From: Sordariomycetes sp. S80-01Y
Lineage: Eukaryota; Ascomycota; Sordariomycetes
Length of the DNA stretch: 64,000 nt
Assembly (NCBI GenBank): GCA_037042185.1
Contig: JAXQJY010000027.1
Location: forward strand, 620,001 to 684,000
Direction of reading: 5' to 3'
Made by a program: the position numbers and the translations under genes. The notes below the pieces were generated by a model. The model was not told where the DNA came from. It worked only from the letters and a program-made list of their open reading frames with translations, and searched no databases. Shown piece by piece: positions 8,304-47,710 of this stretch; positions within the stretch are counted from its first letter, which is position 1, and every line of letters begins with the position of its first letter.

Positions 8304-10072
8304 ATGGCTCCTATTCAGTTACACAGCGAGGCCACGAACCGACCAGATGAATGGAAGATCGAGCAAGGCTTGTCCGCGGCTGTCTTGCCCGTGCTGGACA
8401 TGACCGGCCCAACGACAACTTGGAGTGACCCTCAGACTTTTGGCCCCTTCACTAAGGATGAGGCGGCCGTCAAGGCTGTCGGTGATAGAGAAAAGCTCTT
8501 CACTCGAGCCCGTAAGGGCTGGAAGGGGTAAGCTCCTACGTCTAGTTGATGTCTCATCCACTTGAACGCCTCTGATGTCGTTGAAATTCCAGATTCGTGG
8601 AGTGGGAGGAGAATCCCGACAAAAAGGAAAAGGCGCACAGGATCATCAAGGCCGAGGTCTTCCCCCCTAACCCGGAGTACCAGATGGGCCCCATTCCCGG
8701 AACTAACCCCGTGCTTCCCGGCACACGCTGGAAGATGTGGCATCACGCCGTGGGAGGCGAGCTGACCGACATTCCCGACGACTCGTGGAAGCTGGTGCTC
8801 AAGGAGAAGCACCCGGACATGCTCCACCTTCTGCAGTTCCCGTACAACGGAGAGCCTCCCAAGCGCCTGGTCACAGACAAGGAGATCACGCCCAACCCAC
8901 TTCACTTTGTTCGGAACCACGGAGGGATCCCCATCATTGACAAGGAGGACTACAGCTTCAGGCTCGATGGCTTGGTGAAAAATCCCAAGACATTCACCCT
9001 CGATGACCTTATGGATGAGTCCAAGTACCCCCGCATGGAGAAGATTGTCACGATCCAGTGCTCAGGCACCCGCCGTATCGAGCAGATCCGCCTATACCCG
9101 GGCCAGGGTGACGAGGTGCCCCAGGCGCCTTGGGCTGAGGGCGCCATCGGCACTGCACGATACACTGGCATCAGTCTCAAGAAGGTCATCAAGGAGTGTG
9201 GCGGGATGATCGACGGCGGGAAGCACCTGGAGTTCTACGGCGCGGATACCTACTTCAAGGACGACAAGGTCATGAACTACCTCGTCAGCGTGCCCTGGTC
9301 CAAGGTCAAGGCCAACGAGGTGATGCTCGCCTGGGACATGAATGGCGAGCCCCTTCCCCGCATCCACGGATACCCGCTGCGTCTCGTGGTGTTCGGCTAC
9401 ATCGGCGCCCGTAGCGTCAAGTGGCTTTACCGCATCAAAGCCATCAGACAGCCCTCACGTGCACCCGTCCAGAGCCAGGAGTACCTATACTTCCCGCAGC
9501 AGGTGGGCAAGTATAACTTCAAGATGACGGACGGCATTCAGATCCAAGAGATGCCCGTCAGCTCGGCCATCATGTCGCCCTGGACCCGCCAGGTCGTTGT
9601 GCACAACGGCAAGATCCGCTGCAAAGGTTGGGCCTACTCCGGAGGCGGCCGTTGGCCCGAGAGAGTCGAATTGTCGGCTGACGGGGGGTTCAACTGGTAC
9701 ACAGTGCCCCTGGACAAGCTTTCCAAGAAGCGCAAGTGGACGTGGCGCACCTGGGAGATGGAGCTGCCCTGCGACGTCGAGGGCTGGGTGGACATCGTCT
9801 GCCGCTGCTGGGACAACTCGCTCAACACGCAGCCGCCGGACGTGCGGACTGCGTGGAACTGGGGTCTGCACGTCACGAGCTCGTGCCATCGCATCAATGT
9901 GTACAGCGTCAACAAGTCGAGGCCCAGGACCAAGGCACGGCTGGAGGAGTTCGAGAGCAAGGGCATCCCGTTGGGACCACTGACGGTGCCGCTGGCGTTC
10001 CCATCGCAGAACTGGGATGAGTACGAGGAGTTCTGGAAGAAGAATGATCCTCGTGATGTGGACGACGATTAG
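8304..10072 (+). CDS. Molybdopterin oxidoreductase, sulfite-oxidase-like, 567 aa
   Basis: Exons are 8304-8527 and 8593-10072; the joined codon gives KGWKGFVEWEE. The start MAPIQLHSE has an A-rich context (CAACAATGG). The protein has the Oxidored_molyb domain (roughly residues 160-340) with the cofactor-binding cysteine at about residue 231 in TIQCSGTRRIEQ, followed by the Mo-co dimerisation domain with GWAYSGGGRWPERVELS and WDNSLNTQP. Plant and animal sulfite oxidases and eukaryotic nitrate reductases normally carry CAGNRR here; this protein has Thr in place of Asn. There is no cytochrome b5 or FAD/NADH domain, so it is neither a complete assimilatory nitrate reductase nor an animal-type sulfite oxidase. 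The acidic C-terminus (DVDDD) lacks a peroxisomal signal. Most likely it is a cytosolic sulfite-oxidase-like enzyme; the substrate is unproven. Confidence 0.85.
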
Positions 10073-10937
10073 CTTCGGCTCTCGAGTTGTTTCTCCTCAT
10101 GCTCATGTTCAGGACTAGTCTTCCACTTCGTACTGCAAAGGTATTCAATTGTTCAAGCTATGAGATAAGGTTGAAAAAAAGGCTTTTAATCACCCATTTG
10201 AGCCTCTTTAAAAGATTCTATTGTTGTTATTCGTCCCTTCTCTCCGTCCTTTCTCTCCGTCATCTGAACTGCCTCATCTACTTGCGCTATGTGAGAATTG
10301 GTCTCTTTTAACGAAATGAAAGGTTCGGGTGACTACAAGTTCAAACTGAGCATCAGAATACCAAGGCAACTCCCCCACCATACCACACAGTGTGGCCCCA
10401 ATCCTACATGGTACCGTTATGCTCAAGAGAGTCGCTGTAGGGAGTAGAATCGCGGCCAGCACGCACAGTCCCAGCAGTGGGGGAAACTGAGAAGCCTTGA
10501 AAGTCTATTGTCTAGTGGGATCCACACAGAGTACGTGGTAAAATATGCTTTGAGATGGGATGTTTGGCATTCGGCTGGGGAGGAGGAGGGTCAACGGTAT
10601 GCGGAGTAAGACATGTACGGGTTGGTACATGAAGCTGATGGTGTGAACGGATAGCATTGGAGCGGACCATTGACCAATGCGCGTCGCTTGAATTCCCATT
10701 ATTCATCCACCCGCTTCGTTGAAGGCATTTGATCTTACATCTACTCAATCTTGATCAGCCTGCGCTTGCATTCGACTTCATCTGTGGCTATACCCTAACT
10801 GCAAGTCGAATTGGCCAGTGATGCTCCGCGTGGTGCGGACACGACCTTCGGTACCTCTAACCAGCCACAGCCACCATCCATCACCTCCAAGAGGGATTCC
10901 ACAGGTTGCGGCTGCGGTTGTCTTTATTGGAAGAGCC
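10073..10937. other. Intergenic region before DyP peroxidase
   Basis: This 865-bp stretch contains the 3' flank of the molybdenum enzyme, including an AT-rich segment at about 10140-10210, and the promoter of the peroxidase. An in-frame upstream ATG at 10818 would add 40 Pro/His-rich residues to the peroxidase; I consider those untranslated. No other gene or repeat was seen. Confidence 0.45.
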
Positions 10938-11909
10938 ATGGCCACTGCGAGCATGAGCAGCGCGCTGGGGGGCCAGCAGTCCGTCGATGCGCCTCTCACC
11001 CGCTGTGCGACATTCCTTGTGTTAGCCGCCAGGCCAGGCCAGGACGCCCTCAGGACCATCCGGTCCACCTTGGCGGGCGTGGAGGGACTGACCAAGAACG
11101 TCTCGATACGTGATCTTCACTCCAACTTCTCGTGCACCGTCGGAATCGGCAGCGCGCTGTGGGACAGTCTCACCAAGCTTCCTCGCCCGTCCGAGCTGCG
11201 GCCGTTCCCTGTGCTCCGGGGCCAAGTCCACGCCACGGTCTCGACGCCGGGTGACCTGCTGTTCCACATACGCTCAGATCGCCGCGACATTTGCTTCGAG
11301 TTTGAGCGCCAGCTCTTCGGTCAGCTTGGAGACGCGGTGCAGGTCGTCGACGAGACCACTGGTTTCCGCTACTTTGACGCCCGTGACCTGCTGGGCTTCG
11401 TCGACGGCACCGCCAACCCGGTCGGGCCAGATGCATCCAGCTCGGCCTTCATCCAGGCTGAGGACGACCCTCATGGCGTCGGTGGGAGCTATGTTGTGGT
11501 GCAGAAGTACCTGCATAACCTCAAAGAATGGAGCGCCCTCAAGACGGAGGATCAGGAGGCTGTGATTGGCCGGACCAAACTGGACAACATAGAGCTGGAC
11601 GACGCCGAGCAAGGGCAGCAGATGTCGCACAAGACACTGGCGACGATTGAGGACGAAGAAGGAAATGAGCATGACATCGTCCGGGACAACATGCCGTTCG
11701 GGTCACCGGCATCGGGCGAGTACGGGACTTACTTCATAGGGTACTCTAAGAAGCTATGGGTGACGGAGAAGATGCTGGAGCGCATGTTTGTTGGGTGTCC
11801 TGAAGGGAAGCATGATCGAATCCTGGACTTTTCGACACCTGTGACGGGGAGCACGTTCTTTGTACCATCGGCCGGGGTACTCGCGGGACTGGAGGACGTG
11901 AAGGACTAG
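10938..11909 (+). CDS. DyP-type heme peroxidase, 323 aa
   Basis: A single uninterrupted exon. I chose ATG 10938 because of its strong context (GAGCCATGGCC) and because family similarity begins soon after; ATG 10818 in frame would add 40 residues of unlikely composition. The DyP hallmark GFVDGT is at about residues 153-158 with its distal Asp, preceded by FRYFDARDLL. Downstream come SYVVVQKYLHNLKEW, GRTKLDNIEL, and the likely proximal heme ligand His at about 231 in QMSHKT, then DIVRDNMPFGS and YGTYFIGYSK. This order matches the compact bacterial-like DyP/YfeX branch rather than the longer secreted fungal dye-decolorising enzymes. No signal peptide is seen, so an intracellular peroxidase is likely. 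It lies downstream of the sulfite-oxidase-like gene in the same direction. Confidence 0.88.
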   Translation: MATASMSSALGGQQSVDAPLTRCATFLVLAARPGQDALRTIRSTLAGVEGLTKNVSIRDLHSNFSCTVGIGSALWDSLTKLPRPSELRPFPVLRGQVHATVSTPGDLLFHIRSDRRDICFEFERQLFGQLGDAVQVVDETTGFRYFDARDLLGFVDGTANPVGPDASSSAFIQAEDDPHGVGGSYVVVQKYLHNLKEWSALKTEDQEAVIGRTKLDNIELDDAEQGQQMSHKTLATIEDEEGNEHDIVRDNMPFGSPASGEYGTYFIGYSKKLWVTEKMLERMFVGCPEGKHDRILDFSTPVTGSTFFVPSAGVLAGLEDVKD

Positions 11910-12171: not shown

Positions 12172-15100
12172 TCAGGTCGTCTCTCTATCCAGGCTCTGCC
12201 CCAGAACCATTTCATAATAAACACCCCTCTTGGCAATTAGTTCCTCATGACTGCCCATCTGGACCACCCTGCCCCTCTCAAAGACTACAATAGTATGGGC
12301 ATCCCTGATCGTGCTCAGCCTGTGCGCCACAGCCACCGTCGTTCTTCCCTCGGCTGCCTTATCCAATGCTTCTTTGACAACCTTCTCGGACTCGGTATCC
12401 AGAGCACTGGTGGCCTCGTCGAGTAGCAGAAGGCGAGGTTTGCGGATGAGAGCTCTCGCAATGGCAATACGCTGGCGCTGGCCGCCTGAAAGGGAAAGAC
12501 CTTGGTTGCCGCAGGGTGTGGCCAAACCTTGGGGAAGCGAGGCAATGAAATCCCAGACGTTGGCCTGACGGCATGCCGTAGCGATGTCTTCGTCGCTGGG
12601 CTCGCCATCCTCGATGCCGAGAGCAATGTTGTCTCGAATGGAGCCTTGATACAAGAACGGTTCTTGTTGAACAAGAGCAATATGCCGTCTGTGCAAGCGT
12701 CGGTCTTTACTCTTGATATCATGACCATCAGTGAGGATGCGTCCTGTCGTGGGATCGTAAAAGCGTTGCAGAAGAGCGATCATGGTTGACTTGCCGCATC
12801 CGGATGCACCTACGAAGGCGATCTTTTTGCTGGATGGAATATCGACGCTGATGCCTCGAAGAACCTGTTGCTTTGGTCTAAGAGGGTAGGAAAAGGCAAC
12901 CTCATCGACCTCGACGTGCGTTGCCTGCTGGGACGGCTTGTCGTCACCCTTATTTTCTTCATCTTGTTCTGAGTCCTTCATGCTGGCCTTGCGTCTCAAA
13001 GAGAAGATGTAGTTCATCGAAGTCCGCGCTTTGGTGATGCTCGTGGTGTATTGGAAGAACATCGCCGCCGACTCACCCGAAAAGATGACTGCAATGAAGA
13101 CTGTGTAGAACTGTCCGGTCGAATACTCGCCCGTCGAAACGAGACGACCGCCATACCAGAACCCCAAGCCCATAGCGAGGAAAGAGATAGATTGGCTGAG
13201 AGAGTAAAATAGCATTCTCCAGCCGAGTCCACCTATAGCTTGCTTCGCGATGCCCTCAAGGGACACTCGGTAACGGTCAACGATGGCGCGTTCGAGGGCC
13301 AGGGACGAGACCGTTCGGATGGCCATGACGGCTTCGCTTGCAAGACCGCTGCTTTTTGCAAAGCGATTTGAGGTATCGTCTTCGAATTTGAACTCTAACC
13401 GGATGCGGATATAGCCTGCTCCCACCAAAACAGGCAGCGCACCCAGAACGAGCGTCAACCCCAGTTTCCAGCCGTAGGCAATGGCGAGGACGGAGCTTGA
13501 CAGAAGGTTGACGACGTTGATGAGCATCAGCGCCAGGTTCATAGACAGAAGCTCTTGCAGACTTGTAGGCTCGGCACTCAATCTTGACACCAAACTACCA
13601 GTGCTGTGCTCTGGTTGATCAAAGAACACCATCTCCTGCCTTAAGGTATTGTTGAACAGCTCCCCTCGGTAGAACATCATGATGTGCTGGGCAATGACGT
13701 TGGCAATCCAGCCGGCGACAGCATACGCAACTAGGTTGCCCAAGGCAACAACGAAGAACATCAAGGCATAGAAGTTGGCTTTGCTAACGTCGACCGTTTC
13801 AAAAGCCTCCATTGTACGAGCGAAGAGAACTGCGAGGGCGGGATATGTTGCACCCCCAGCAATTGCGCAGAGGAAAGTGATGAACAGGGGCCACCACAAC
13901 TTGGGTTGTTCTTTTAGGACCAACCAGAGGCCCTTAGAGAGTGAGAGGCCCTCGTCGTCATTGGCAAGCTGGGGTGCATCACCGGCACTGCCAGCGGCCG
14001 AGACTTCAGTGACACGGTTGTCCAGGTCATCCACGTTCTCATCTTCTCCTTCCTTGGACTCGATGTCGTTATGGCCTAGATCTTGAGCACGGACAAGGCG
14101 AGCATAAGCGCCTTTGCGTTCGATAAGCTCGTCGTGCGTGCCACTCTCAACGGTTGCGCCCTTCGACATAACGATAATGTTGTCCGCATCGCGGATGGTA
14201 GAAAGCCGATGAGCAATGACGACCATGGTCCTTCCTTTCGCCACGTTGTTGAGCGCCTGTTGCACGATCTTCTCAGCCTTCGGGTCGAGCGCCGACGTGG
14301 CTTCGTCGAGTAGCAGCACTTTGGGGTTGGAGATGATGCTGCGAGCAATGACGACGCGCTGCTTCTGGCCCCCGGAAAGAGATGCGCCGCGCTCACCAAT
14401 GATCGTGTCATAGCCGTGAGGGAGCTCTTCGATGAAGTCGTGCGCAAATGCCGATCGACAAGCTTCCTTCACGAGAGTGCGTTGCTCATTTTCAGGGAGA
14501 TTGGCCATGGCCGTGCCAACGAGACCATCGACTACATTCTGGTAGATCGTGCCGGAAAACAGCGTAGGTTCCTATCTCAATCAGTCCCTGCTCTCCTGGC
14601 GCCGCTGCTTCCTCTTACCTGTTGAACGAGCCTGATACTTGTCCTGAGCCATTGCAGATTCAGGTCCTCAATCGGCTGCCCGTCGAGCGTAATACTTCCG
14701 CTCTCTGGAACGTACCATCTTTCAAGCAATCCGAATATCGTGCTCTTCCCCGAGCCGGAAGCTCCCACAAGCGCTGTAGTCTTGTTGGCGGGCACATCCA
14801 GATCCAATCCATGAAGAACCGGAACATCAGGTCGAGTCGGGTAGGCGAATTTGAGTCCTCGGAGCTTGATTTCTCCAGTGAAGTGCTCAATCATTCCTCC
14901 ATCGGTCGAAAGCGAATCAATCTGTGATTTGCGGTCGATAATCGAGAAAATGTCCGACGCGGCCGCCGTAGCCTTCGAAATAGCTATCGTTTGAGGCGCA
15001 ATCTGCGTCAATGCCTGAGCAGCAACAAGAACCGCAAAGATGACGCTATGTTACGCAACGTCAGGTGTCACGATTCCCAACGAAACATGTATCATGCCGT

Positions 15101-16263
15101 GTTTCTCGGATTGCATACGAGGCGGGAAGCGACTTACGTTACGACCGTGCCCGGATCCGAAATCTCGCCCTCGGAAAACATCCGCATGCCCTGCCAGAAC
15201 GCCAAACCGTAGCCCGCAAAGATGCAGAAGAATTCTGTGGGAAAGAGAATGGCGTAAATGAGCGACTTTTTGGAGCCAACTCGGCGCGCATCTTCGAGAA
15301 TGTGGTTGAAACGCTTCATCAGCCTGGGAAACGCCCAGAAAGCGTGCGCTGTGCGGATGGATGAAAAAGCTTCCTCTGCGAGCGATCCCGACTTTCCGTA
15401 GATGTCAAACATCTTGTACTCGTAAACTGTGTCCCAGATGACGCAAATGATGGTGACGACGATATTGACGGGCACAATTGCGATGACAATGAGGGTCAGC
15501 TTCCACTGTACAGCAAACGCGACGACGAAAGCGGCCACGAAGCTCGAGCAGGCTTGCACGGTTAGACCGAGCTTTTCAGAGATGCCATTGTTGATGAGAT
15601 TGCCGTTGGTGGTGACTTGGCTAGAGACGGACGAGGAGGGTGAGTCGAAGAATGGGACTTCTTGACGGAGTATTTGTCTGACGAAGTCGATGCGAAGTTC
15701 CTTAGTCGTGCGAATAGCCGTCAGGTTGATGATGAACTACACTATTAGCACTGGGCAAGGCAGGGTCTCTTTTGACCTACAGTCCAGATATAGGTCAAGA
15801 CAAATTTGCCTATGAAGAGGTAGATGAAGTAGAGGCTGAATTCGTTGACCTTGGATCGATAACCAGCAGGCGAAAGCTCGCCAATGACAAAATCATTGAA
15901 GACATTGATGAACTTTCCAAATACGACATCCATAAGCGGCAAGACCGTGCCACTCACGATCATGGCGACAAAAGCAACGGCGTTTAAAATCCATCCTTTC
16001 CGGTCGTTGTACGTGAAGACTCGCTGCAGACTGTCAGGATATAGTCATACCCGAGTGGGATTCAAAGTGCTTACGAGGAAGAACTTGACACTAGAGTCGC
16101 CCTTCTTCTCTGCTGTTTCAGGCGCTTCCTCCATCACCATTCCATTCGGTGGGAGTTGAGGCTTTTCGTGTGCGTGGTTAGGCGACGCGCCCCCAGTCGG
16201 TGAGGCCTCATCATCTGAGCTTGGTGAGCCTGTGGGAGGCGGAGGTTTCTCAGTCGCATCCAT
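12172..16263 (-). CDS. Full-size ABC transporter, subfamily B (P-glycoprotein/MDR type), 1285 aa
   Basis: Five exons: 16263-16075, 16023-15781, 15736-15138, 15045-14619 and 14571-12172. The layout is TMD-NBD-TMD-NBD. The N-terminus (MDATEKPPPP) is a hydrophilic Pro/Ser-rich cytosolic tail of about 60 residues. NBD1 has Walker A GASGSGKST (about 440), signature LSGGQKQR (about 550), Walker B VLLLDEATSALD and the switch histidine in VIAHRL. NBD2 repeats these: GASGCGKST (about 1075), LSLSGGQRQR (about 1178), LLLLDEATSALD and VAHRLSTI. All catalytic residues are present, so both sites should be ATP-competent. Length and order match Pgp1/Mdr-type exporters of drugs or lipophilic compounds in the fungal plasma membrane. 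Starts further upstream (16284, 16302) are possible but add unlikely residues. It lies tail to tail with the DyP peroxidase gene, 262 bp apart. Confidence 0.93.
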
Positions 16264-17164: not shown

Positions 17165-18727
17165 TCAGAACTCAAGTTCGAATGCCCAAGCCTCTGCCGG
17201 GTTGGTCTGGCGCACCTCCAGGTTGACCTTGTTCTGCTCGTACGCCACCGTGGACGTACCCAGATCCTCGGGATCAGCAACGCGATCGTATCTTCCAGGC
17301 GCCGTGTTGAACTTCGTCGTACGAACCGTGATGTCGCCGCTTTCAGCCAGTCCGACAGTATCCAGATCATTTACTTGAACGTTCCAGGTCCCGTTTTCAG
17401 GCCGAGAACCAGCCAAAATTCTGACACGGCGTGCAGAATCGTCGACGACGGCGAATGAATCCGCGAACGTATCCGCGGTCATTTCGGTGCGGACGCGCTC
17501 ACCTGTCATCTCCTGGTGGTAGTAAACGTAGACCGGGTACTCTCGGGCCGGCCAGTAATCCACGTCGTTGACGTCGTATTGGTTGCCGCTCGCTTCCTTT
17601 CCGAGAAGGTTTGCGAGAAGATCGTGAAGCTCGAGACCACTGCGCCAGTTGGCTCGTAGTCCAGGAGCGTTGTGACGTTCCAACTGAGCAATGTTCCATA
17701 CTGCGGTGGAAGGGATCTGCTGGTCCGGGTGGCCGTACTCCTGAACGTTCCAGATGCCAGTATATTCAATGCCAGCATCAGATAGGATCTGATCAAACTG
17801 GTTGATGGACGTGGTTAAGTCCCCGTCGGCGTAGAGGAAGTGCAAGCTGACCTGGTCGGGAACAGCATCGTTCTTCGCAACACGGCTAGCCCACTCGGTA
17901 AACCAGTTGATCATGTCGCCGGCGAAGTTAGGCAGGCGGCCAAAGGAAGGACCAGTAGTTTTTCCTCCGGGGAAATCGCGTCTGGAGAGCACTTAGTAGC
18001 TGTACTCCCTTCTTGTGAGGATGCGGAAGGTGGGCTTACACAATCTTCTGGTGGGCATGAACATAGTACTCCAGGTACCTGTCTAAACCTCGATCACCGA
18101 ACTCGCCATTGTCGGGCTCATTCCAGATGTCCCACCAAATATTCTCGACCATGTCATCCTGGATCAAGAGGTCAAAGAAAGTGTCGAGAAAGTTATCAAA
18201 GTCCTCATAGCTTCCGTTGTCACCGGGATATGGAACCTCCTCTGGGGAGCTGTAGGAGTCAATTCCCCACATGTCGTGGATCATGATCTGGAAGTTGCCC
18301 CCGTGACGACGTGTAACATCGTAGTCGGATTTGAGAGACTCATATCGTCCCTTTTCACGATGAGTGCCTGTAGTAGTCACGAAGTTGTACGACAGGGTAG
18401 AAAACTCACCAAGAAGTCCTCGTATCCACGTGTCCAGCCTCTTCTCGGCTCCCCAAGCTGAGAGCCCCCTGACCTCATGTTGTTGAAACCAACATCACTA
18501 AGAAAGTGGTCGGGAATCTGGGAGCCATTTAAGGGCAGGCCCAAGAGAATGCCTGAAGCCATGTTCTTGGGGGCTCCAGTACGCTCTCCAAGGAAAACGT
18601 TGGAGGTTCCTGTCAAATCACGGCGCCCCAGCTCTCGGGGTTCCCGAGTGGGGGACGCATGCGTGGTTGGCAAGCAAGCATTGAGTGCAAGGAACAGACA
18701 TGTGAGTCTTTGCATTAATGAGATCAT
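17165..18727 (-). CDS. Secreted clan GH-A glycoside hydrolase (GH39-like), paralog A, 481 aa
   Basis: Exons are 18727-18410, 18350-18040 and 17981-17165. The N-terminus MISLMQRLTCLFLALNACL is a signal peptide. The fold looks like a clan GH-A (beta/alpha)8 barrel. The acid/base candidate is Glu184 in IWNEP, and the nucleophile candidate is Glu291 in WNVQEYGHPD. Intron 1 must use the acceptor GTGAAAAG, giving GYEDFLGRYESL, which aligns with GYEGYKGRFDST in paralog B (22095-23602). The second intron, after the QKI codon, has the same place and phase 2 as intron 1 of paralog B. A C-terminal beta-rich domain (last 130 residues) ends AWAFELEF, like AFEFM in paralog B. Substrate is unknown; GH39 members act on beta-xylosides and arabinogalactan side chains. 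It is divergent from the GH43 gene. Confidence 0.82.
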
Positions 18728-18802
18728 GGTGTGTGCAAATTTTCCCTTGTGCTTAGGAATCGAAGCTGGCCCTGGTGACAGATGATCACAGGTTGTTTTG
18801 CT

Positions 18803-18809
18803 ACTTATA
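18803..18809 (-). promoter_or_regulatory. TATA-like box of GH39-like paralog A
   Basis: TATAAGT on the minus strand, 76-82 bp upstream of the ATG at 18727. The spacing is like that of the GH43 and GH39-like B boxes in this cluster. Confidence 0.5.
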
Positions 18810-18965
18810 GAGTACTCAAAGGAGCCAATACGTAACAAAACATCTTAATAGCAAAACCCTTCATCTCAAGGCGTTTTGATGCACCACACAGATACTCCAA
18901 GAGCTCAACCCACTTCCACCGGGAAAGACTCTCATACAGTATCGCGTACACCGTCGGGAACTTCT

Positions 18966-18977
18966 CCCCCACCGGGG
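18966..18977. promoter_or_regulatory. C-rich dyad CCCCCACCGGGG (candidate regulator site 1)
   Basis: A 12-mer of near-dyad form lying 239 bp upstream of GH39-like A and about 490 bp upstream of GH43. The same string with one change (CCCCCATCGGGG, 21828-21839) lies about 255 bp upstream of GH39-like B. The inverted CCC/GGG arms resemble half-sites of a dimeric Zn2Cys6 regulator, and overlap CreA-type CCCCAC strings. Confidence 0.4.
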
Positions 18978-18984
18978 CGATGAT

Positions 18985-18993
18985 CCCCCACCG
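18985..18993. promoter_or_regulatory. Partial copy CCCCCACCG
   Basis: Nine bases identical to the left part of the 18966-18977 dyad, 8 bp further along. It contains a CCCCAC string that fits the CreA consensus. Confidence 0.3.
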
Positions 18994-19009
18994 TGATTGC
19001 AAGAGCTGT

Positions 19010-19019
19010 CCCCACGGGG
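19010..19019. promoter_or_regulatory. Shortened dyad CCCCACGGGG
   Basis: A third C/G dyad in the shared promoter, 283 bp upstream of GH39-like A, with the arms two bases closer than in site 1. Confidence 0.35.
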
Positions 19020-19373
19020 AAGGGCTTTTAAGCTTAGTTCTGAAGATGGAATAGTCGCGAGCTGGAGAGCTGGGGAACCATTTGTGGCGCTACGCGGGAT
19101 TTCACCAATTCACGACATGACATGACGACGGGGCGCGCACGAAACTCTAGACTCAACAAGCGCGGAATTTCACCACAGGGCATATGGAAGCCCAGATGCA
19201 GCCTCTCATGGCCCTTACTCTAGATTCGGCACTCTTGCGAGAAGGCATGAGAAGCGCATCATGTGTATTGGCTTGGATCAAAAGAAGACCCATTGTCACA
19301 GAGCGTCGATCATATTGACCTCCATATGATGATTCGCTCGGCAATCAGTATGCATGCCAAGCCTTTCGGCCGT

Positions 19374-19378
19374 TATAA
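19374..19378 (+). promoter_or_regulatory. TATA-like box of GH43 gene
   Basis: TATAA within GTTATAAGGATATATG, about 91-95 bp upstream of the GH43 start codon at 19469. Confidence 0.5.
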
Positions 19379-19468
19379 GGATATATGATGCCGTCTTGCC
19401 AGAGAGTTTGGGAGTCCACGCAACAAATCCTCTTACTCATCATCGCTGATTTGTGACTCCTCGCCGAA

Positions 19469-21064
19469 ATGACCTCTCTCACTCTCACAGGCCTGCTCTT
19501 TGCGGCCCTTGTACCATTTTCTCGCGCTCAGAACTTCACAAACCCCATCATCTGGCAAGACCTTGCCGATGTGGACCTTCTTCGCGTAGGCGATGCCTAC
19601 TACTATTCGTCGTCTAACATGCACATGTCTCCAAGTGCTCCCATCCTCAGGTCGTACGATCTGGTGAACTGGGAATACCTTTCGCATTCGATTCCCACTT
19701 TGGTCCCTGACGACCCTTCCTTCAGTCTCGAGGGTGGCAATCGCTATAATGCCGGTGTTTATGCTTCCTCCTTAAAATACCATGAGGAGCGTGGCCTGTT
19801 CTACTGGATCGGCTGCCTCCAGGGCACTGGGTCTACCTACATCTATACAGCGACCGACATTGAGGGTCCCTGGGAGCAAACTTCCGTTCTCGAAGGAAAG
19901 TGCTATTATGACAATGGTATCCTCATTGACGATGACGGCACAATCTACATCGCTTATGGGTCTGGTGTTCAAGATGGCACCGACGCTCAAGTGCTCGTCG
20001 CAAGACTGGACGACGAATTGCAGGAGGCCGAGGTACAGGTCGCCTTCCAGACCAACGAAGAGATCGGATATCTCGAGGGTGCCCGGTTCTACAAGATCAA
20101 CGGATCTTACTTCTTGTGGATGACCTGGCACAACGGCGGCATGGGAAACTTGGTCTTCAAGTCGCAGGACGGGCCGTACGGACCTTACACTAGCGAGGAT
20201 TCCCGCCCAGTCATCTTCAACAGCGGCAATCCGGTGCCCGGCCTCGGGGTTCCCTACCAGGCTGCTTTGGTTGAGACTCCGGAAGCTGACCTTTACGCCA
20301 TTGCCTTTGTCAACAACTGGCCCACTGGACGTATTCCCGTTCTCGCACCCGCTTACATCGATGCCGATGGTTATCCTCAGATCGATTTTGTTAGCGAGAA
20401 CACCTGGGGATCGACGTATCCTCTGCCTCTGCCCACGAGAGAAGTCAAGCCGATAGCCGGCTCTGACGGTTTTGGAAGCGATGTTTTGGGACCTCAGTAT
20501 GAGTGGAACCATAACCCTGACAACTCTAAATGGTCTGTCGGGTCTGGTCTTACGCTGCAAACTGCCACGGTCACGGATGATTTCTTCATGGCCAGAAACA
20601 CACTGAGTCATCGCATTCTCGGACCCAAGTCCACTGCTACCGTTCATCTCGACTACTCTGGGATGGCCAATGGCGATCAGGCTGGCCTTGCCATTTTCAG
20701 ATACCGGGCTTCCTGGCTCGCCATCTCCAAGAGTGACTCCACTACAACGCTCCAGCGAGTTGAGGACGCACTCATGGATTCGTCGGGTGGATGGCACACG
20801 GTGCAGAAGGGCAATGTCACGGATAGCGTCGAAGTCTCGGGAGGCGAGATCTGGCTGCGCGTTGATGCCGACGTCACCAATAGCGATGCTTCTGCCTTCT
20901 TCTCCTACAGCACCGACGGGTCCAGCTTCAAACCACTTGGCGAGACGTACAACATCATTGATGACGCTATTTTCTTTGTTGGAGACCGCTATGGGATTTT
21001 CAATTTTGCTGAGGAGGCTCTCGGCGGCGAAGTCGTGGTCAAGAACTTTACTCTGTCTCAATAG
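19469..21064 (+). CDS. Secreted GH43 glycoside hydrolase, 531 aa
   Basis: A single intronless exon with a signal peptide (MTSLTLTGLLFAALVPFSRA). A five-bladed propeller catalytic domain follows: NPIIWQDLADVDLLRVGD, with the general base candidate Asp34, a pKa-modulating Asp in CYYDNGILIDDDG, and an acid Glu in GYLEGARFYK. From about residue 340 there is a second beta-sandwich domain (ending GEVVVKNFTLSQ), like the concanavalin-like C-terminal domain of fungal GH43 beta-xylosidase/arabinofuranosidase-type enzymes. Activity on xylan, arabinan or galactan cannot be told apart here. The enzyme is divergent from GH39-like A and followed by GH39-like B on the same strand. A 487-codon frame on the opposite strand is a shadow. 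Confidence 0.92.
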   Translation: MTSLTLTGLLFAALVPFSRAQNFTNPIIWQDLADVDLLRVGDAYYYSSSNMHMSPSAPILRSYDLVNWEYLSHSIPTLVPDDPSFSLEGGNRYNAGVYASSLKYHEERGLFYWIGCLQGTGSTYIYTATDIEGPWEQTSVLEGKCYYDNGILIDDDGTIYIAYGSGVQDGTDAQVLVARLDDELQEAEVQVAFQTNEEIGYLEGARFYKINGSYFLWMTWHNGGMGNLVFKSQDGPYGPYTSEDSRPVIFNSGNPVPGLGVPYQAALVETPEADLYAIAFVNNWPTGRIPVLAPAYIDADGYPQIDFVSENTWGSTYPLPLPTREVKPIAGSDGFGSDVLGPQYEWNHNPDNSKWSVGSGLTLQTATVTDDFFMARNTLSHRILGPKSTATVHLDYSGMANGDQAGLAIFRYRASWLAISKSDSTTTLQRVEDALMDSSGGWHTVQKGNVTDSVEVSGGEIWLRVDADVTNSDASAFFSYSTDGSSFKPLGETYNIIDDAIFFVGDRYGIFNFAEEALGGEVVVKNFTLSQ

Positions 21065-21827
21065 ACGTTTGGGCGTCTGACCAAGGAGTGCTATCACCTG
21101 TAGCAAAATAGGGCTTGCACGGGTTTGAGAAGATGGGTTCAATAGGAGCAGTACCAGAATAGAAGCTAAAGGGCGAACATAAAGTCCATATGATCTACAA
21201 TTTGAATACAAAGCGCCAGATCGCTGGATTTTCAAAGTGTCTAGTACAAACTAATTGACCGTTTGGTAAGGCTCTGTACTGTTGTTGCGCTTAGCGAGTC
21301 AGGAATTTCTGTCAAGCAGCCCATCGTCCTAGGGTTCGGAACACAGGCATCGAAAGGTCTGATTTTTACGAGAGACGCGATCCTAAGCGCAACGCCCAAC
21401 AGCTGGGGAGGCGTTGAGCTGAATTATAACTTCGTCTGCGGCACTCTGACGCACTTCTCCTTGTACTCGAACATTGAAATGGACACAATGCCGGCATGTC
21501 AATTCAATCTTGGTCTCTCAATGGTGGTCCCGAACGACCTTACAGGAATTCCCCCCTCATGGACTCTGACGACCCATCATCCGGTTGCCCGAGCATTTTC
21601 TATCATTCTCAAAATGCCACGGAGGTTGCCATGAGAATTATGGACGACTCTCTTGGACGGATCCGGTGCGCTCAGCCTGAAGAGCGGCTGGAACCGCGCC
21701 AGTCAGCATCTGATACACGTAAAGCGCGCGAAACATCAGCGGCCTTGAAGTCACGCGGCCCCGCCACCGCAGTATCGGCATCCAAATACTGGATAGTTTG
21801 TGGGGTTAAAGCTTAAGTGCTTCCCCG

Positions 21828-21839
21828 CCCCCATCGGGG
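21828..21839. promoter_or_regulatory. C-rich dyad CCCCCATCGGGG (candidate regulator site 2)
   Basis: Differs at one position from the dyad at 18966-18977 and lies 256 bp upstream of the GH39-like B start, almost the same distance as site 1 from paralog A. A TTCCCCAG string follows at 21841. Confidence 0.42.
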
Positions 21840-22001
21840 TTTCCCCAGATTCAGATACGCGGAACCTCCACATACCCGCCACGAGATCTACAGACTACTA
21901 ACGCTGTGAGCCAGTCCCGAACCGCTGAAGAAGCACCATCGGGCGAGGCTACGGTGAATTCATCCGGGATGGCGCTCAAAACAAACAAGGAGTGTTTGGG
22001 C

Positions 22002-22008
22002 TATTTAA
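22002..22008 (+). promoter_or_regulatory. TATA-like box of GH39-like paralog B
   Basis: TATTTAA, about 87-93 bp upstream of the ATG at 22095, in a position like the other boxes of the cluster. Confidence 0.4.
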
Positions 22009-22094
22009 GGTCGGCAGCCTCCATTCTCTCGGCTTGGCCCCAACACCAATTCTGATTGTGCTTTGACTCAACATTCCACTTTCTCTCTCTCGAG

Positions 22095-23602
22095 ATGCTT
22101 TTGAAACTTTCCACCACTTTGGGGGCCATTGCGGCCGCGAATGCTGTTTCTCTCCCGGTCAGGCAGACGTCGCCCGCTGGCACGGCCCAGGTCAACCTAG
22201 CCTCATGCAAAAGGGGCGAGAACACGTTCCTTGCCTCCGGGTTCATCTACGGGTGGCCTGACAACGGCACAAGTGTCGACACTTCTATTCCCGATGAGTT
22301 TGTCACCGGATTCAAATTTCGCACGGGCCGCGCTGGTGGAGCTCAGCTGGGCCCTCCTTCTCAAGGATGGGCAGTAGGAGGCTACGAAGGATACAAGGGC
22401 CGCTTCGACTCGACTCTTTCGAACTACCTCACCACTCGCAAATACGGAGGAGACTTTATTCTGCTTCCTCACGACTTGTGGGGCGCGGATGGTGGCCTCG
22501 GCGGAGGTTTGTATCCTGGTGACGATGGCGACTGGACCGAGATGGAGAAGTTCTATGATCAGTTGATCAAGGATCTGAAGGAGAATGATATGCTCGAAGG
22601 TCTCGTCATCGACCTTTGGAATGAGCCAGAGCTAGACATCTTCTGGTCTCCTCCTTACGAGCAGTACTTGGATTACTACGTTCGCGCCCACAAGATTGTT
22701 AGGTACGTTGCGGGCAATTGTCACGATAGGAAAATCTAACGAACCTTCCAGGGAGCAGCTTCCCGGAACCCTGATCAGTGGTCCCGCTGGTGCCTACTCG
22801 CCCAGTGTTGACACAGCTGAATGGAATCAGTGGATGGCTCGTGTTGCTGAAGAGGATGTTGTTCCTGACATCTACTCTTGGCACCAGATTGGAGGACGCG
22901 CGCCAGACGAGACTATCCCCGATTTCAACACGCTTCTTGACAAGTACGGTCTCCCTCAACGCCCAATCGATGCCAATGAGTACGCCCTGCCGGAGGAGCA
23001 GAACCCAGCCAACACAGCCTGGTATATCGCCCAGCTCGAGAGGTACAACATCCGTGGCCTCCGTGCCAACTGGGGCAGTGGCGGCGAGCTCCACGACTTC
23101 ATGGCCGACGTACTCTTCGATGACGAGGGTACTTACAAGCCCAACGCCGAATGGTACGTGTACAAGTACTACGGCGAAATGACTGGCAAGCGAGCTAAGA
23201 CCACGGCCTCTGATGACGGACTTTTCGACGTGTTTGCTTCCGTTGATGGCGAGACCGTCAAGCTCGTTGCTGGGACACGGACTGTGCAGAAGCCGTATGA
23301 TATCAGCGTCAAGGGCCTGACATCTGTTGGTCTTCCTTCAAAGGGTACAGTCAAAATTCGCACACTGCGCTTCGACTGGGAGGGAAAGACTGTTGATACA
23401 GGCGGCCCTGTTGATCTCGGTGTGAGTGACTTTGAGTACTCTGAGAACAAGGTAAGTCTTCCCAAGAGAAGCAAAAAGATTTCTTTGCTTGAAGTTAGCT
23501 CATAGGCCAAATCCATGCTGACACTGTATTTTCTTTTTCCAGCTCATCATTCCCGTGGATCCTCCCACAAACTCCACTGGTTACGCATTCGAGTTCATGT
23601 AA
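22095..23602 (+). CDS. Secreted clan GH-A glycoside hydrolase (GH39-like), paralog B, 455 aa
   Basis: Exons are 22095-22702, 22752-23451 and 23543-23602; phases match. The signal peptide is MLLKLSTTLGAIAAANA. The acid/base candidate is Glu177 in DLWNEPE, and the nucleophile candidate is Glu279 in IDANEYALPEE, with a conserved AWYIAQLERYNIRGLRANW stretch after it that also appears in paralog A. The last third forms a beta-rich domain. The final exon of 20 codons encodes the ending GYAFEFM; paralog A has the matching tail without an intron, so an intron was gained or lost after duplication. Predicted secreted hydrolase; substrate unknown. It shares a promoter dyad with paralog A. Confidence 0.85.
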
Positions 23603-24600
23603 ATGAAGCTTAAAATTTGGGGAGGTTGGCGTTTCCTTATCCTCCATTCACACGGTGTCTCAAAAACAGCACGTTTAGTTCCCAGAAGCTTGTTCAATAT
23701 TATGAATAAACGCCAGTCATATCAGACTTGCCGCAAGCCGTTCCAGAAATTCAACCTATGAAATATGTATCAAACATACCTATCCCAAACAATCGGTGCA
23801 ATACTCTTTCCCCTATGCCTATATCAGCCATGCGGCCTGACAGGTTGGTATCGTGCCTTTGGAACGGGAACCTTTTGCTTCGATCATAAACAGCATGACT
23901 TATTACAATCGTAGACAATGACATTTTATCGAGCTCCTGTTCCAGGGTTCTCCAAGGCTTCAGATAAGAAGCCTAAGCTTGGCCAATCTTGGGCCAGACG
24001 AGGTGATCAGGGTCTCTGTTACGGAAGACAGGTGCCGTGTCCGGCCCCGTTCGTTACCCCTCACTTGTTGAGGCTACCCCTCAGACGTTCACTCGTTTCC
24101 CCAAGTGCTTCGTATCGTCATCACCCTCAACAGCGGCACCATCCCCACACCGGTGGTGCAATGAGAGGTTGTGGGGGTGGGGGTGGGGGCGGGCCCTTGC
24201 ATCGATACTAACTAGTCTCGTACTAGGAAGGCAAGTGATCTGTAAATCCGTTGGACATCCCAACTCCGGAGGAGGGGAGTCGGCTTTCATTTGGGGGAAC
24301 ACCAAGCGTGAGGTGGAGTCGAAGGACCGTTAAGTAAAAGTTCCTCCCCTCGGCTTGACCGTGTAACCCAGAGTGTAAAGACTATTTCTGAGCTGACACC
24401 CACTTTGACACTCAACAGTGGGTTCGTGATTGCACTCGGAGACCCACGTCAGATGGGACCGTGTTGGACTTGAGCTCTTTTACAATACCCCGCGGAAGCC
24501 ATACTTAAGGGGACGCGCGCCGTCGTCGGCTCTTCGAAATCCAACTCTCCATTCGATCTGACCAAACCCCACCTTGACCACTCCGCGCCAAACATCTATT
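23603..24600. other. Intergenic region upstream of GH31
   Basis: This 1.0-kb stretch holds the GH39-like B 3' flank and the GH31 promoter. A G-rich tract at 24171-24193 is annotated separately. No dyad identical to the GH39-like promoter motif is seen here; CCCCACACCGG at about 24144 is only a loose match. Confidence 0.5.
24171..24193 (+). repeat. G-run tract, potential G-quadruplex
   Basis: Four runs of three to five G separated by single bases (runs at 24173-24177, 24179-24183, 24185-24189 and 24191-24193). It lies about 410 bp upstream of the GH31 start. On the plus strand it meets the usual G3+N1-7 rule. It also contains repeated GTGGGG, which fits the CreA consensus. Confidence 0.6.
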
Positions 24601-26675
24601 ATGTTTCGACAGGAATCGGAGCGTCTGGTCTACAGCCATGACGGCGAGCAGCTATGGATTGAAGCATGGGGTCCCGATGCCTTCCGGGTCAGGGCTACGA
24701 AGAATTTCGAGATGCCGAAATCACAATGGGCTCTCGACGAGCAACCTCTCAAATCCACGCCACAGATCGACGTCCACCGCAACGGCGAATCGTCTATTCA
24801 GAACGGAAAGATAAAGGCCGTCGTCTCTTCAAGGGGCAAAGTCTCTTTCTACAACCAAGATGGGAAATGCCTGCTCCAAGAGTACGCGCGCAACCGACGC
24901 GACCTCCTTGACGAGAAGTGCAGCGCAATCGAGGTCGAGGCTCGTGAGTTCAAGGCGCTGCGCGGAGGTGATTATCATCTCACCATGCGCTTCGAGGGCA
25001 TTGATCCCAACGAGAAGATCTTTGGCATGGGTCAGTACCAGCAGCCATACCTCGACCTGAAGGGTCTCGACTTGGAGCTGGCGCAGCGGAACTCCCAGGC
25101 GAGCGTGCCTTTTGCGCTCTCCTCGCTTGGGTACGGAATCCTCTGGAACAACCCTGCGATTGGTAGGGCTGTCTTTGGTAAGAATATCACAAGTTTCGAG
25201 GCATACTCTACGGATATGCTTGACTACTGGGTGATTGCAGGAGACACGCCTCGAGATATCATCCAGGGTTACGGCAATGCCGTGGGCAAGCCTCCAATGA
25301 TGCCTGAGTATGGTCTCGGCTTCTGGCAATGCAAGCTTCGTTACGAGACCCAGGAGGAGCTGTTGCAGGTTGCTCGCGAGTACCGCCGCCGTGAGCTACC
25401 CATCGATCTGATCGTGATTGATTTCTTCCACTGGCCCATGCAGGGCGACTGGAAATTTGATTCCAAATTTTGGCCCGACCCCGGTAGGTTTTCCATCCTT
25501 CAATCAGCGTTGCTATCTTGCTAACGACTAATCTTATAGTCGCCATGACGCGAGAGTTGAAGGACATGGGCATCGAACTCATGGTCTCCATATGGCCCAC
25601 CGTCGACAGTCGGTCAGAGAACTACCAAGAGATGGTGGACAATGGTTTCCTAGTCCGCGCCGAGCGTGGAATCAGGACAAATTTCGACTTCGAGGGCCAT
25701 ACAGTCTACTATGATGCGACTAGCCCCGGAGCGCGAGCTTACATCTGGTCAAAGACCAAGCAGAACTACTACGACAAAGGCGTGCGCTCATTCTGGCTAG
25801 ACCAGGCAGAGCCGGAATATACCGTATACGACTTTGACAATTACCGCTACGCTATCGGCTCATGCCTTAGGGTCGGTAATTTCTACCCTCGAGACCACGC
25901 GAAAGCCTTCTACGAGGGAATGGAGCAAGAAGGACAGAAGAACATCATCAATCTTCTTCGTTGCGCTTGGGCGGGAAGTCAGAAGTATGGAGCTCTGGTT
26001 TGGAGCGGAGATATCGCTTCCTCATGGTCAAGCTTTGAGAACCAGCTAGCAGCCGGTCTCAACATGGGCATCGCAGGCCTTTCTTGGTGGACGACTGATA
26101 TTGGAGGCTTCCACGGGGGCGATCCCAACGATGACGCCTTCCGTGAGCTGTTCGTGAGATGGTTCCAATGGGGAACATTCTGCCCCGTCATGCGACTGCA
26201 CGGCGACCGCGAGCCTAAGCAAGGCAAGGAGGCTAGCAGCAGCGGTGCCGGAAATGAGGTCTGGTCCTACGGCGAGCGGGTTTACGAGATATGCAAGACG
26301 TACATGTCCATCCGGGAACAGCTGCGGGACTACACGAGGAGCCTTATGGTCGAGGCTCACGAGAAGGGTTCCCCGGTGATTCGACCCATGTTCTACGAGT
26401 TCCCCGACGACCCCAAGTGCTGGGACTGCAGCGCCACGACGTACATGTACGGCGACGCTCTGCTCTGCTGCCCGGTGACCAAGCCCGGCGCGAAGTCGAT
26501 TGAGGTGTATCTGCCGAAGCTTGCCGCGGGCGATGCTTGGTGCCCCTTCAACGAGCAAGGAAGCGCAGACGCCTGGGAGGGCGGCCAGACAAAAGAATTC
26601 CCTTGCTCACTAGAGAAGATGCCGGTATTCGTCAAGCGGTCGAGGATTGATGCCATTTCTGGGGCGAGGGTGTGA
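24601..26675 (+). CDS. GH31 alpha-xylosidase/alpha-glucosidase-like enzyme, 672 aa
   Basis: Exons are 24601-25483 and 25540-26675, joined as WPDPVAMTRELK. The start is ATG 24601 (MFRQESERL). An N-terminal beta-sandwich is followed by the catalytic barrel. The nucleophile candidate is Asp382 in FWLDQAEPEY, and the acid/base candidate is Asp452 in VWSGDIASSW. SWWTTDIGGFHGG and MRLHGDRE are further family motifs. The size and WLDQAEPE motif resemble the bacterial YicI-like alpha-xylosidase branch rather than large secreted fungal alpha-glucosidases. No signal peptide is visible, so it should act in the cytosol on imported oligosaccharides, complementing the secreted GH39-like and GH43 enzymes next to it. 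Whether xylose or glucose is released is uncertain. Confidence 0.9.
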
Positions 26676-39545: not shown

Positions 39546-42500
39546 ATGTGCGACGACTTGAAGAGGAGACATGCTAAGGCTGTGAGTGAGTCGTCTCGTG
39601 AGCGGGAGACGGTTGCGTACGTCCATTTACTCCTTCTACCAACTCCTATCGAGCAGTGCCTTGGCTTTGCCAGGACTTGGGCCGCAGACGTTGGCTGACA
39701 AACTTGCGCCAGCTATGTCGAATCAATCCTCCACGCCTTTGAACGAAACGACGAGGGCAAGCCGTTGCCGTCAAACCAACTGCGGACCTCGCCAGATCCT
39801 CTGCTCACGTCCCTCGCCCAACTCGCAACTCACCGGACAGGGACCGCTCGGTCCATGATATCGATATTCGACAAGGAGCATCAATACATTGTCGCGGAGT
39901 CCACGGCCACCACGACTTTGGCCCCAGGCTTGCCGGCCAAGGATACAGGAGCTGATCTTTGGCTTTGCGGCACGGCTATCCCTCGAAACCAGGGCGTTTG
40001 CGACTTCACCGTTCGAGAAGCCGAGCAGGGAGGGAACATCCGGTTCTATCCAGAAGGCAACGGCCGCGGCGCGTTCCTGCCCCTCACCAAAGTTGAAGAT
40101 CTCAGTCTCGATTCCAACTTTTGCATGAAGCCCTACTGCCAGCCTGGCAGCCCCGCCAAGTTCTACGCTGCGGTGCCGATCCGGACGGCGAAGCGTATTA
40201 ACATCGGTGTCATCTGCGTCATTCACGATGAACCCGTCACTTGGTGGAACGACGACCATGCCCAGGTCTTGCGGGACCTCTCGCGGATCATCATGGACCA
40301 CTGGGATGCGACAAGTAGCAGGATGGCGCACCGACGAGCCGAGCGGATGAATAGGGGCATGGGCTCTTTCTTGGAAGATAAGTCCACCTTATCGGGGTGG
40401 AGGGACGGACCCTTTTCTGAGGCCTACTACGAACGGAAAGGGTCTGAAGGGAATCTCAACAGGGAGCAGCAGGCCTCGGAGATGAAGGCAGACACCGCCC
40501 TCCAGCATCGGTCCGGGATGCGGTCCATCCTCGATACCGAACCACTGCTGCCATCCACCCCGCAGGGCCAAGAAGCCCAAGACGAGGACCGTTGGAGCAG
40601 CTCACATCTTGTACAGAGTCACTCGTCCGATCTCGAAGGGTCGGCTTCTGCACCCGCGAAGCATCGCATCCAGGCCCCTACCGACCCGGCAGATCAATCA
40701 CAGAAGCGTCAAGATGACATCGACCGGGTCTTCGACAAGGCTGCCAACTTGGTTCGCGAATCGCTAGAAGTCGAGGGATGTTTGTTTCTCGATCCAACGC
40801 TCACCACCTTTGGGTCGCTCGTCGGTTCAGCAGGTCAGAATCTGTCGCCCATGACAACCGTCTCGGAACAAAGCAGCGGAGAGTGCGATGACAAGGGGGC
40901 GTCGGATGGAGAAGCACCGCTGCAGTATTGTCGCATACTGGGCTTCTCTACCTCGACATCTCACAGCGTTAACGGAGACACCCCCTTTGAATTCGAGGGC
41001 ACCATTGCGCAGAAGCTCACGGCTGTGTTGCTGCAACGGTATCCGCAGGGCAAGATTTTTAACTTCGATTCCAACGGCGATCTCATGACGAGCGATTCCT
41101 CGGATGACTCGACGCCGACAAACCCCAGGACGCCTGACACGGCAATTTCAGAGACCGCCCTGAGCAGTCTGGCCCCGACCGCAACATCTGCAGGTCGTAG
41201 ACGGAAACGATGGTCACGGGAACAGGAAGGCAAGAATATCTCCGACATCTTCCCCGGTGCTCGGAGCGTGGCCTTCATGCCGATATGGGATTCCAGAAAG
41301 GAGACCTGGTTCGCCGCGTCCTTCACCTACACCAACTCGCCGGCTAGAGCGTTTACGGTGCAAGGCGAGCTCACGTACCTCAAAGCGTTCGGGATGTTGT
41401 CAATGGAGAACATACTACGCCTCGAAACCATGCACGCAGACAAGGCGAAGTCAGACGCTTTGAGCTGTATATCGCATGAGCTGCGCTCACCGTTACATGG
41501 CATTCTCCTCGGAGTGGAGCTGCTGAACGACACGGATTTGAATGTTGTGCAGGGCAATATGGTACACAGCTTGGAAACTTGCTGCCGCACCATGCTCGAC
41601 ACTGTGGACCATCTGCTGGACTTTTCCAACATCAACAACATTGCTCGACAAAACAGGTGGCTCTCGCCAGGTCAAGGAGTTCAGTCTACCAGGACGAAGC
41701 AACCGGGCCTGATGGATACCAACTCAATAGTCACACTACCCAAACTGGCAGAGGAAGTCATCGACAGCGTCTTTGCAGGCTTCCAGTTCCAGGAAATGTC
41801 CATCAAACAATTCGCGCGAAGGCAGAAGGAAAGCCATAGCGATGTCGCTGCGCATGCTTACATGGATGGCATGCACGCTCACGATGAATTCGGCGGACCA
41901 TTCTCTGCCGAGCCCGAGAGCTTTGAATCTGCTGAGCCTTCTGGAACCACGGTCTGCAACGGCGTCCAGGTCTTCCTTGCGGTCGATCCCGGTTGTGAGT
42001 GGTCATTTTACGCCAACAGCGGCGCGCTGCGACGCATCATCATGAACCTATTTGGCAATTCCTTGAAGTACACTGAGAAAGGCACGATTAAGGTGTTGCT
42101 GTCGCAAAAGACACCCAGGGCCGCGTCGCGGAGGAACACGCGCCAAGTCCTGCTTACCGTTGCAGACACGGGGATCGGCATGAGCCAGGACTATCTGCAG
42201 AATCACCTATTTCGACCTTTTTCCCAGGAGAACAGCCTCTCGCCCGGCACCGGCCTTGGTCTGAGTCTTGTGCGCCAGCTCGTATCGCAGATGAGGGGGA
42301 AAATATCCGTCGACAGCCGCGTCGGCGTAGGCACCACCATCAGCGTTTCCTTGCCGTTGAAGATGAGCGCAGGCAGCGCCGCCAGCCCCGACAATGCTTT
42401 GACGGACAAGTTCCCCCAGAAGGCAAAGTCCCTGCGCGGCTTACGCATTCGCCTACTAGGTTTCTCGGGAGATGGAGCTGCGGGAGATAATCGAGGACCA

Positions 42501-47633: not shown

Positions 47634-47710
47634 GCAACAGCTATACACCTGAATATGCCACCGTTATCAATTCATATTTCAGCTAGAACGAGCTATCTGG
47701 AGTACCTTCA

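Follow-up and report, generated by a model that had tools for sequence, protein, structure and literature searches.

We analysed a 64-kb window (positions 620,001 to 684,000 of contig JAXQJY010000027.1) from the 30.87-Mb, 16-contig genome of the fungus Sordariomycetes sp. S80-01Y, focusing on a cluster of four glycoside hydrolase genes at window positions 17165-26675. An earlier note on this DNA had pointed to four adjacent enzymes of this kind, and reading frames, sequence and splice models bear it out: all four genes are intact and open after splicing. Short introns and fungal transcription-factor domains in the window agree with its fungal origin.

A four-gene glycoside hydrolase cluster

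The leftmost gene, A39, encodes a GH39-like protein of 481 amino acids on the minus strand (18727-17165; exons 18727-18410, 18350-18040 and 17981-17165). According to the gene models, it shares a divergent promoter of 741 bp (18728-19468) with B43, an intronless, single-exon gene on the plus strand (19469-21064) whose 531-residue product combines a GH43 domain with a C-terminal GH43_C2 domain. Two further plus-strand genes follow: C39 (22095-23602; exons 22095-22702, 22752-23451 and 23543-23602), encoding a 455-residue GH39-like protein of the N2152/8uwt subgroup, and D31 (24601-26675; exons 24601-25483 and 25540-26675), encoding a 672-residue GH31 protein of the type of the alpha-xylosidase MeXyl31.

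Judged by eye, the N-termini of A39, B43 and C39 resemble signal peptides and that of D31 does not; the stop-to-stop frame of D31 contains no ATG upstream of its start. A39, B43 and C39 therefore look secreted and D31 looks intracellular, as far as can be predicted from these features. The earlier proposal of external debranching followed by cytosolic cleavage of an alpha linkage is thereby supported in part, through the three N-termini, the lack of a signal-like start on D31 and the 55% identity of D31 to MeXyl31.

B43 matches the Pfam profiles for GH43 (120.1 bits) and GH43_C2 (80.8 bits), and its best relative of solved structure is HiAXHd3 (3zxj), which it resembles over its full length, C-terminal domain included, at 37% identity (E = 3.8e-103, 349 bits). 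Its further PDB matches include a bifunctional GH43-CE protein (241 bits), BoGH43B (90 bits) and BoGH43A (59 bits), the last two being xyloglucan enzymes. HiAXHd3 takes arabinose off O3 of doubly substituted xylose; the residues that we take to be catalytic in it align in B43. The full-length relation and the GH43_C2 domain suggest that B43 is of the HiAXHd3 type, presumably GH43_36, and a corresponding activity is predicted for it. The genome contains four close paralogs of B43 (42-56%) and two weak matches; its GH43 places number 33, three of them under the Pfam cut-off.

The placement of A39 and C39 is remote. Against Pfam GH39 (PF01229), whose curated cut-off is 26 bits, A39 scores 22.8; C39, without any Pfam match at 0.001, likewise falls short, so we call both proteins only GH39-like. 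In a phmmer search of the PDB, C39 matches 8uwt (E = 5.1e-21) and N2152 (5u22; E = 2e-18, with the alignment to 5u22 spanning residues 141-451); A39 alone has no PDB match at 0.1. A profile built from 25 family members matches 8uwt at 4.2e-45 and N2152 at 6.3e-41, with beta-xylosidases far weaker (best 4.3e-11), indicating that the subgroup of A39 and C39 lies nearer to 8uwt and N2152 than to the solved GH39 beta-xylosidases. Alignment assigns E177 of C39 as the acid/base and E279 as the nucleophile, both of them invariant across the 25 rows, and places the equivalent residues of A39 in WNEP (acid/base) and QEYG (nucleophile) when A39 is aligned with the family. Its relation to solved members, together with the paired catalytic Glu, marks C39 as a probable member of the N2152/8uwt-type subgroup.

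With C39 as query, the sole further GH39-like gene genome-wide is E39, on contig 9. C39 is 44-46% identical to E39 and 35% identical to A39, and A39 and E39 share 33% identity. In a tree with 30 relatives from bacteria, A39 groups with E39 (97/77), with long branches flagged, and A39, C39 and E39 together form one side against the bacterial sequences (100/100). A middle intron (phase 2) is common to all three genes, the first intron is common to A39 and E39, and the last to C39 and E39; the latter two are in phase 0, and all shared introns fall in the same alignment columns. Of the earlier description of A39 and C39 as two secreted paralogs, the secretion (by eye) and the relatedness (35% identity) stand, but the two are not a recent tandem pair. 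A39 lies on the opposite strand, and neither identity, by which C39 is nearer to E39, nor the tree, in which A39 joins E39, makes them sisters. Recent gene transfer from Actinobacteria is likewise unsupported, given the common introns and the fungal side of the tree; an old transfer between fungi and Actinobacteria, in either direction, may have taken place. The last intron of E39 has a GC donor, and on contig 9 (251168-258332) a transcription-factor gene (Fungal_trans and C2H2 fingers) separates E39 from a nearby gene for a sugar transporter, T9 (PF00083).

D31 carries three GH31-type Pfam domains (GH31, 272.8 bits) and aligns with MeXyl31 (5zn6) over nearly its full length (E = 6.4e-250, 55% identity). 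This relation and the GH31 domains place D31 in the MeXyl31 type, and alpha-xylosidase activity is predicted for it. Against the NCBIfam alpha-xylosidase equivalog NF007940 it reaches 225.5 bits, with the cut-off at 606; NCBIfam gave only such sub-cut-off GH31 matches for D31 and none for A39, B43 or C39. Merging 17 matches yields 13 GH31 genes in the genome, four of them MeXyl31-type: D31 and three paralogs at 58-62% identity to it, namely F31 on contig 5 and one each on contigs 6 and 14.

Sister genes, bacterial relatives and the surrounding window

Beside F31 lies a gene for a sugar transporter, T5, which like T9 belongs to PF00083 and is 48% identical to it. Using T5 as query, we obtained 96 matches at 1e-10, corresponding to 83 genes; this list is a lower bound, with 94 of 220 candidates scored, and a distant transporter near other genes could be overlooked. 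A listed sugar-transporter gene is found at most 2.2 kb from three of the four MeXyl31-type genes (contig 5, 345312-350791; contig 6, 1092083-1095883; contig 14, 2419452-2423553), the paired transporters being T5 itself and proteins 56% and 27% identical to it. Among controls, a listed transporter was found within 5 kb of none of the nine other GH31 genes and of two of the 33 GH43 places. With genes treated as independent, the chance that at least three of four would be paired is between ~4e-5 (2.5-kb limit) and 2e-4 (5-kb limit), for a comparison chosen post hoc and with values that are too small, by a factor to which we put no number, because only 94 of the 220 transporter candidates were scored.

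We also examined bacterial gene neighbourhoods. When the three fungal GH39-like sequences were used to scan genomes of bacteria and archaea, 193 stretches matched, of which 153 were relatives and the best 80 were kept; judging by titles, all of these 80 are actinobacterial. A plasmid search gave six records, four of them from Streptomyces, and three plasmid loci (L043-L045) were added to the set. In tblastn searches of the best 80 loci and these three, in which the last ~18 residues of the C39 query came from an uncorrected tail model, close relatives of B43 occur in three loci, all from Lentzea (46.6-47.6%), with weak relatives in four others, and a relative of D31 occurs in one, from Lentzea terrae (L121, 42%), with a weak one in one other. 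The L. terrae locus holds relatives of D31 (42-45%), C39 (36-40%) and B43 (48-50%) within ~12 kb, and its genes encode, by our reading, ABC sugar-binding and permease proteins and a GH9-like protein, as well as GH31, GH39-like, GH54 and GH43 enzymes. By eye, a signal-like start is present in its GH39-like protein and absent from its GH31 protein.

This bacterial triad is one strong example and no rule. Neighbour scans relied on a crude caller of open reading frames (ORFs) and covered 77 of 82 upstream and 69 of 76 downstream ORFs. Upstream of the bacterial GH39-like genes were 25 solute-binding proteins, 16 MGH1-like glycosidases, 14 LacI proteins and one GH31; the next downstream ORF encodes a GH54 arabinofuranosidase in 25 of the 69 cases. 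Whole-genome searches took 73 of the best 80 loci to 69 actinobacterial genomes, of which 24 contain D31-type genes (threshold E <= 1e-60) and 58 contain B43-type genes. A general bacterial pairing of GH31 with GH39 was rejected, with adjacency in only one of the 69 genomes.

For the promoters, we searched for what we take to be the consensus motifs of the relevant regulators (GGCTAA, GGCTRR, CGGDTAAW and SYGGRG). None of the three cluster promoters contains GGCTAA or the AraR-type motif, and GGCTRR shows no excess in them; the A39/B43 promoter contains no GGCTAA, no GGCTRR and no CGGDTAAW. The CreA-type SYGGRG motif is in mild excess at the A39/B43 promoter (6 observed vs 2.9 expected) and the D31 promoter (10 vs 5.7), with 6 vs 4.4 at C39.

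Elsewhere in the window, an ABC exporter-type gene lies to the left of the cluster on the minus strand (12172-15736, its extent taken from open frames, with Pfam run on 12172-14508). It had been considered a neighbour without clear link, and we agree, having found no link and sought nothing beyond Pfam. Farther left are genes for a Dyp-type peroxidase (10755-11909) and for a molybdopterin oxidoreductase with a Mo-co dimerisation domain (8585-10072). To the right, 39699-43631 holds a gene for a large histidine kinase (HisKA, HATPase_c) and, after it, a frame that reads as response-regulator-like, and genes for a Fungal_trans regulator, a sulfatase and an MFS_1 transporter stand side by side at 45888-51097 (MFS_1 Pfam on 49665-50246), possibly as a small sulfatase unit. 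The MFS_1 gene, at 49665 and ~23 kb right of the cluster, is of another kind than T5 and T9.

Candidate substrates of the cluster

We tentatively favour, at somewhat less than even confidence, a reading in which the products of the four genes act together to debranch complex (glucurono)arabinoxylan by removing its side chains. Outside the cell, B43 would take arabinofuranose off O3 of doubly substituted backbone xylose, and A39 and C39 would cut the backbone bond of an arabinofuranose that bears another sugar, releasing a disaccharide for which alpha-D-Xyl-(1,3)-L-Ara is the natural candidate. This disaccharide would be taken up by a sugar permease encoded elsewhere in the genome, and in the cytosol D31 would remove its alpha-xylose; the four genes would be expected to be induced jointly. 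Among xyloglucan, arabinoxylan and arabinogalactan, the glycans put forward in the earlier note, arabinoxylan fits best because B43 resembles HiAXHd3 (349 bits) and is far from BoGH43A and BoGH43B (59 and 90 bits). A fitting side chain exists in corn-fibre glucuronoarabinoxylan, where a doubly substituted xylose of the backbone carries alpha-D-Xylp-(1,3)-alpha-L-Araf-(1,2) (PMC7176698).

Disaccharide release by the predicted activity of the GH39-like enzymes is the bold part of this proposal. In its most specific form, A39 and/or C39 would be 3-O-alpha-D-xylosyl-alpha-L-arabinofuranosidases acting on grass arabinoxylan, and the alpha-Xyl-(1,3)-Ara that they free intact would be imported and then cleaved by D31; we consider this form unlikely as it stands. 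No enzyme of that specificity appeared in the titles and abstract openings of the literature on GH39 and such side chains, a sample with subscription papers mostly outside it. The predicted pairing of a GH39-like enzyme with an alpha-xylosidase would be the new element, since fungal carbohydrate-enzyme clusters are already known. Pairs of Trichoderma species have 14 and 18 common clusters of carbohydrate-active enzyme (CAZyme) genes (PMC10512326), so that calling the arrangement unusual in a fungus was too strong, and in Penicillium parvum the locus number of a GH43_36 gene falls between those of GH30_7 and GH62 genes (PMC10176746). Part of the resistance of corn and grass arabinoxylans to breakdown is due to arabinose side chains that bear substituents, in some cases alpha-xylose (PMC7176698); removal of such branches as disaccharides, combined with a cytosolic alpha-xylosidase, would constitute a new debranching route.

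Several observations weigh against the arabinoxylan reading. D31 is the one MeXyl31-type gene of the four without a listed transporter nearby (the nearest is ~200 kb away), and the T5 and T9 queries give no match in the window. The cluster thus lacks, by these queries, the local product transporter that would make it resemble a polysaccharide utilisation locus (PUL), and its earlier likening to a bacterial utilisation locus holds only in part. Shared control by XlnR or AraR finds no motif excess in the promoters. In bacteria, the commonest recognised enzyme neighbours of the GH39-like genes are GH54 (25/69) and MGH1-like (16/77) proteins, not GH31 or GH43, and the single GH54 found in the fungal genome sits on another contig. 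Only one of the 69 genomes has a D31-type gene less than 1 kb from a GH39-like gene, the next case being 34 kb apart in another genome; B43-type genes lie within 20 kb in six of the 69, five of them Lentzea, and in 11 more genomes (Micromonospora and related) the two share a contig at 41-106 kb, not as neighbours. O3 of the substituted corn-fibre xylose bears beta-xylose rather than arabinose, which makes this structure an inexact substrate for B43, and an alpha-xylosidase took the corn-fibre alpha-xylose directly off the oligosaccharide (PMC7176698), so the disaccharide step is possible, not required. Finally, the GH39 protein of Trichoderma reesei bears the annotation of candidate beta-xylosidase (PMC3526510).

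The main rival assigns D31 to xyloglucan, as a cytosolic alpha-xylosidase that splits isoprimeverose, with the cluster as a general hemicellulose neighbourhood in which the GH39-like and GH43 enzymes act separately on arabinoxylan. For T. reesei, import of isoprimeverose followed by intracellular alpha-xylosidase action was put forward as probable, though unproven (PMC3652757). Xyloglucan oligosaccharides and/or pNP-xyloside (p-nitrophenyl xyloside) are the substrates of most alpha-xylosidases that have been described, with two known to act on corn xylan (PMC7176698). The three MeXyl31-type genes beside listed sugar transporters are consistent with such a role; D31, however, alone of the four adjoins arabinofuranosidase-like genes and not a listed transporter. 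B43 also argues against xyloglucan, being far nearer to HiAXHd3 than to BoGH43A and BoGH43B, if these are the xyloglucan enzymes we take them to be. On balance we regard this assignment as possible but somewhat unlikely. The pairing of intracellular-type alpha-xylosidase and transporter genes in this genome lends genomic support to fungal import and intracellular splitting of alpha-xylosyl disaccharides, described as unproven in 2013 (PMC3652757).

The GH39-like enzymes could instead act on side chains of arabinogalactan-protein or pectic arabinan, as the Bifidobacterium enzymes GAfase and AAfase do, with D31 trimming an alpha-linked end. AAfase is active on gum arabic, larch arabinogalactan and sugar beet arabinan; the GAfase and AAfase clusters, however, pair GH39 with GH36 (PMC10688797). 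No GH36 was seen among the scanned proteins, the window having had no search aimed at GH36, and the nearest solved relative of B43 is HiAXHd3; we consider such substrates very unlikely. Nor does a chance neighbourhood, in which four independent plant-cell-wall genes share no pathway, seem a probable explanation, even though the genome abounds in genes of this kind, with 13 GH31 genes and 33 GH43 places (three sub-cut-off). The promoters without a shared xylanolytic motif, the window without a relative of T5 or T9 and the largely Lentzea-bound bacterial co-location all speak for coincidence. Yet simple arithmetic from 33 GH43 places and four MeXyl31-type GH31 genes in 30.87 Mb gives a chance of ~2e-5, rough and post hoc, of finding both kinds in one 12-kb GH39 neighbourhood. 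Moreover, of the three GH39-like genes that the C39 query finds in the genome, two sit here without being sister copies, and L. terrae repeats the GH31/GH39-like/GH43 triad; coincidence is in our view quite unlikely.

Comparison with known systems

Of the individual enzymes, N2152, which we take to be NF2152, is like C39 in that both catalytic Glu of C39 lie in equivalent NEP and NEY motifs. The relation is remote, A39 alone finds no PDB counterpart, and the specificities of C39 and A39 are predictions. NF2152, from a rumen fungus, is an alpha-L-(beta-1,2)-arabinofuranobiosidase according to a paper that cites it (PMC10688797).

Among gene clusters, the xylan locus PUL-XylL of Bacteroides ovatus is similar in combining a GH31 alpha-xylosidase with a GH43 enzyme for doubly substituted xylose. 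Its alpha-xylosidase is xylan-specific, with ~3,000-fold higher activity on corn xylan than on a xyloglucan oligosaccharide, and its GH43 enzyme strips arabinose from O3 of doubly substituted xylose (PMC4491172). The available portions of that paper name no GH39, and the fungal cluster is smaller, with no local transporter of the T5/T9 type. The L. terrae locus shares relatives of D31, C39 and B43 within ~12 kb, the C39 relative at 36-40% identity, and differs in its additional GH54, GH9-like and ABC transport genes.

The closest likeness in logic is offered by GAfase and AAfase, GH39 enzymes of Bifidobacterium that release disaccharides and whose genes adjoin GH36 and ABC transporter genes; beside each lies a gene for an exo-enzyme, known or predicted, that acts on the disaccharide set free (PMC10688797). 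Compared by arrangement, both systems place an extracellular GH39 or GH39-like enzyme beside an exo-glycosidase for its product, the partner being GH36 in Bifidobacterium and GH31 in the fungus, where the window holds no transporter of the T5/T9 type. If A39 and/or C39 do release intact alpha-Xyl-(1,3)-Ara, the fungal cluster would provide a means of salvaging side chains that is the counterpart of GAfase/GH36 in bacteria.

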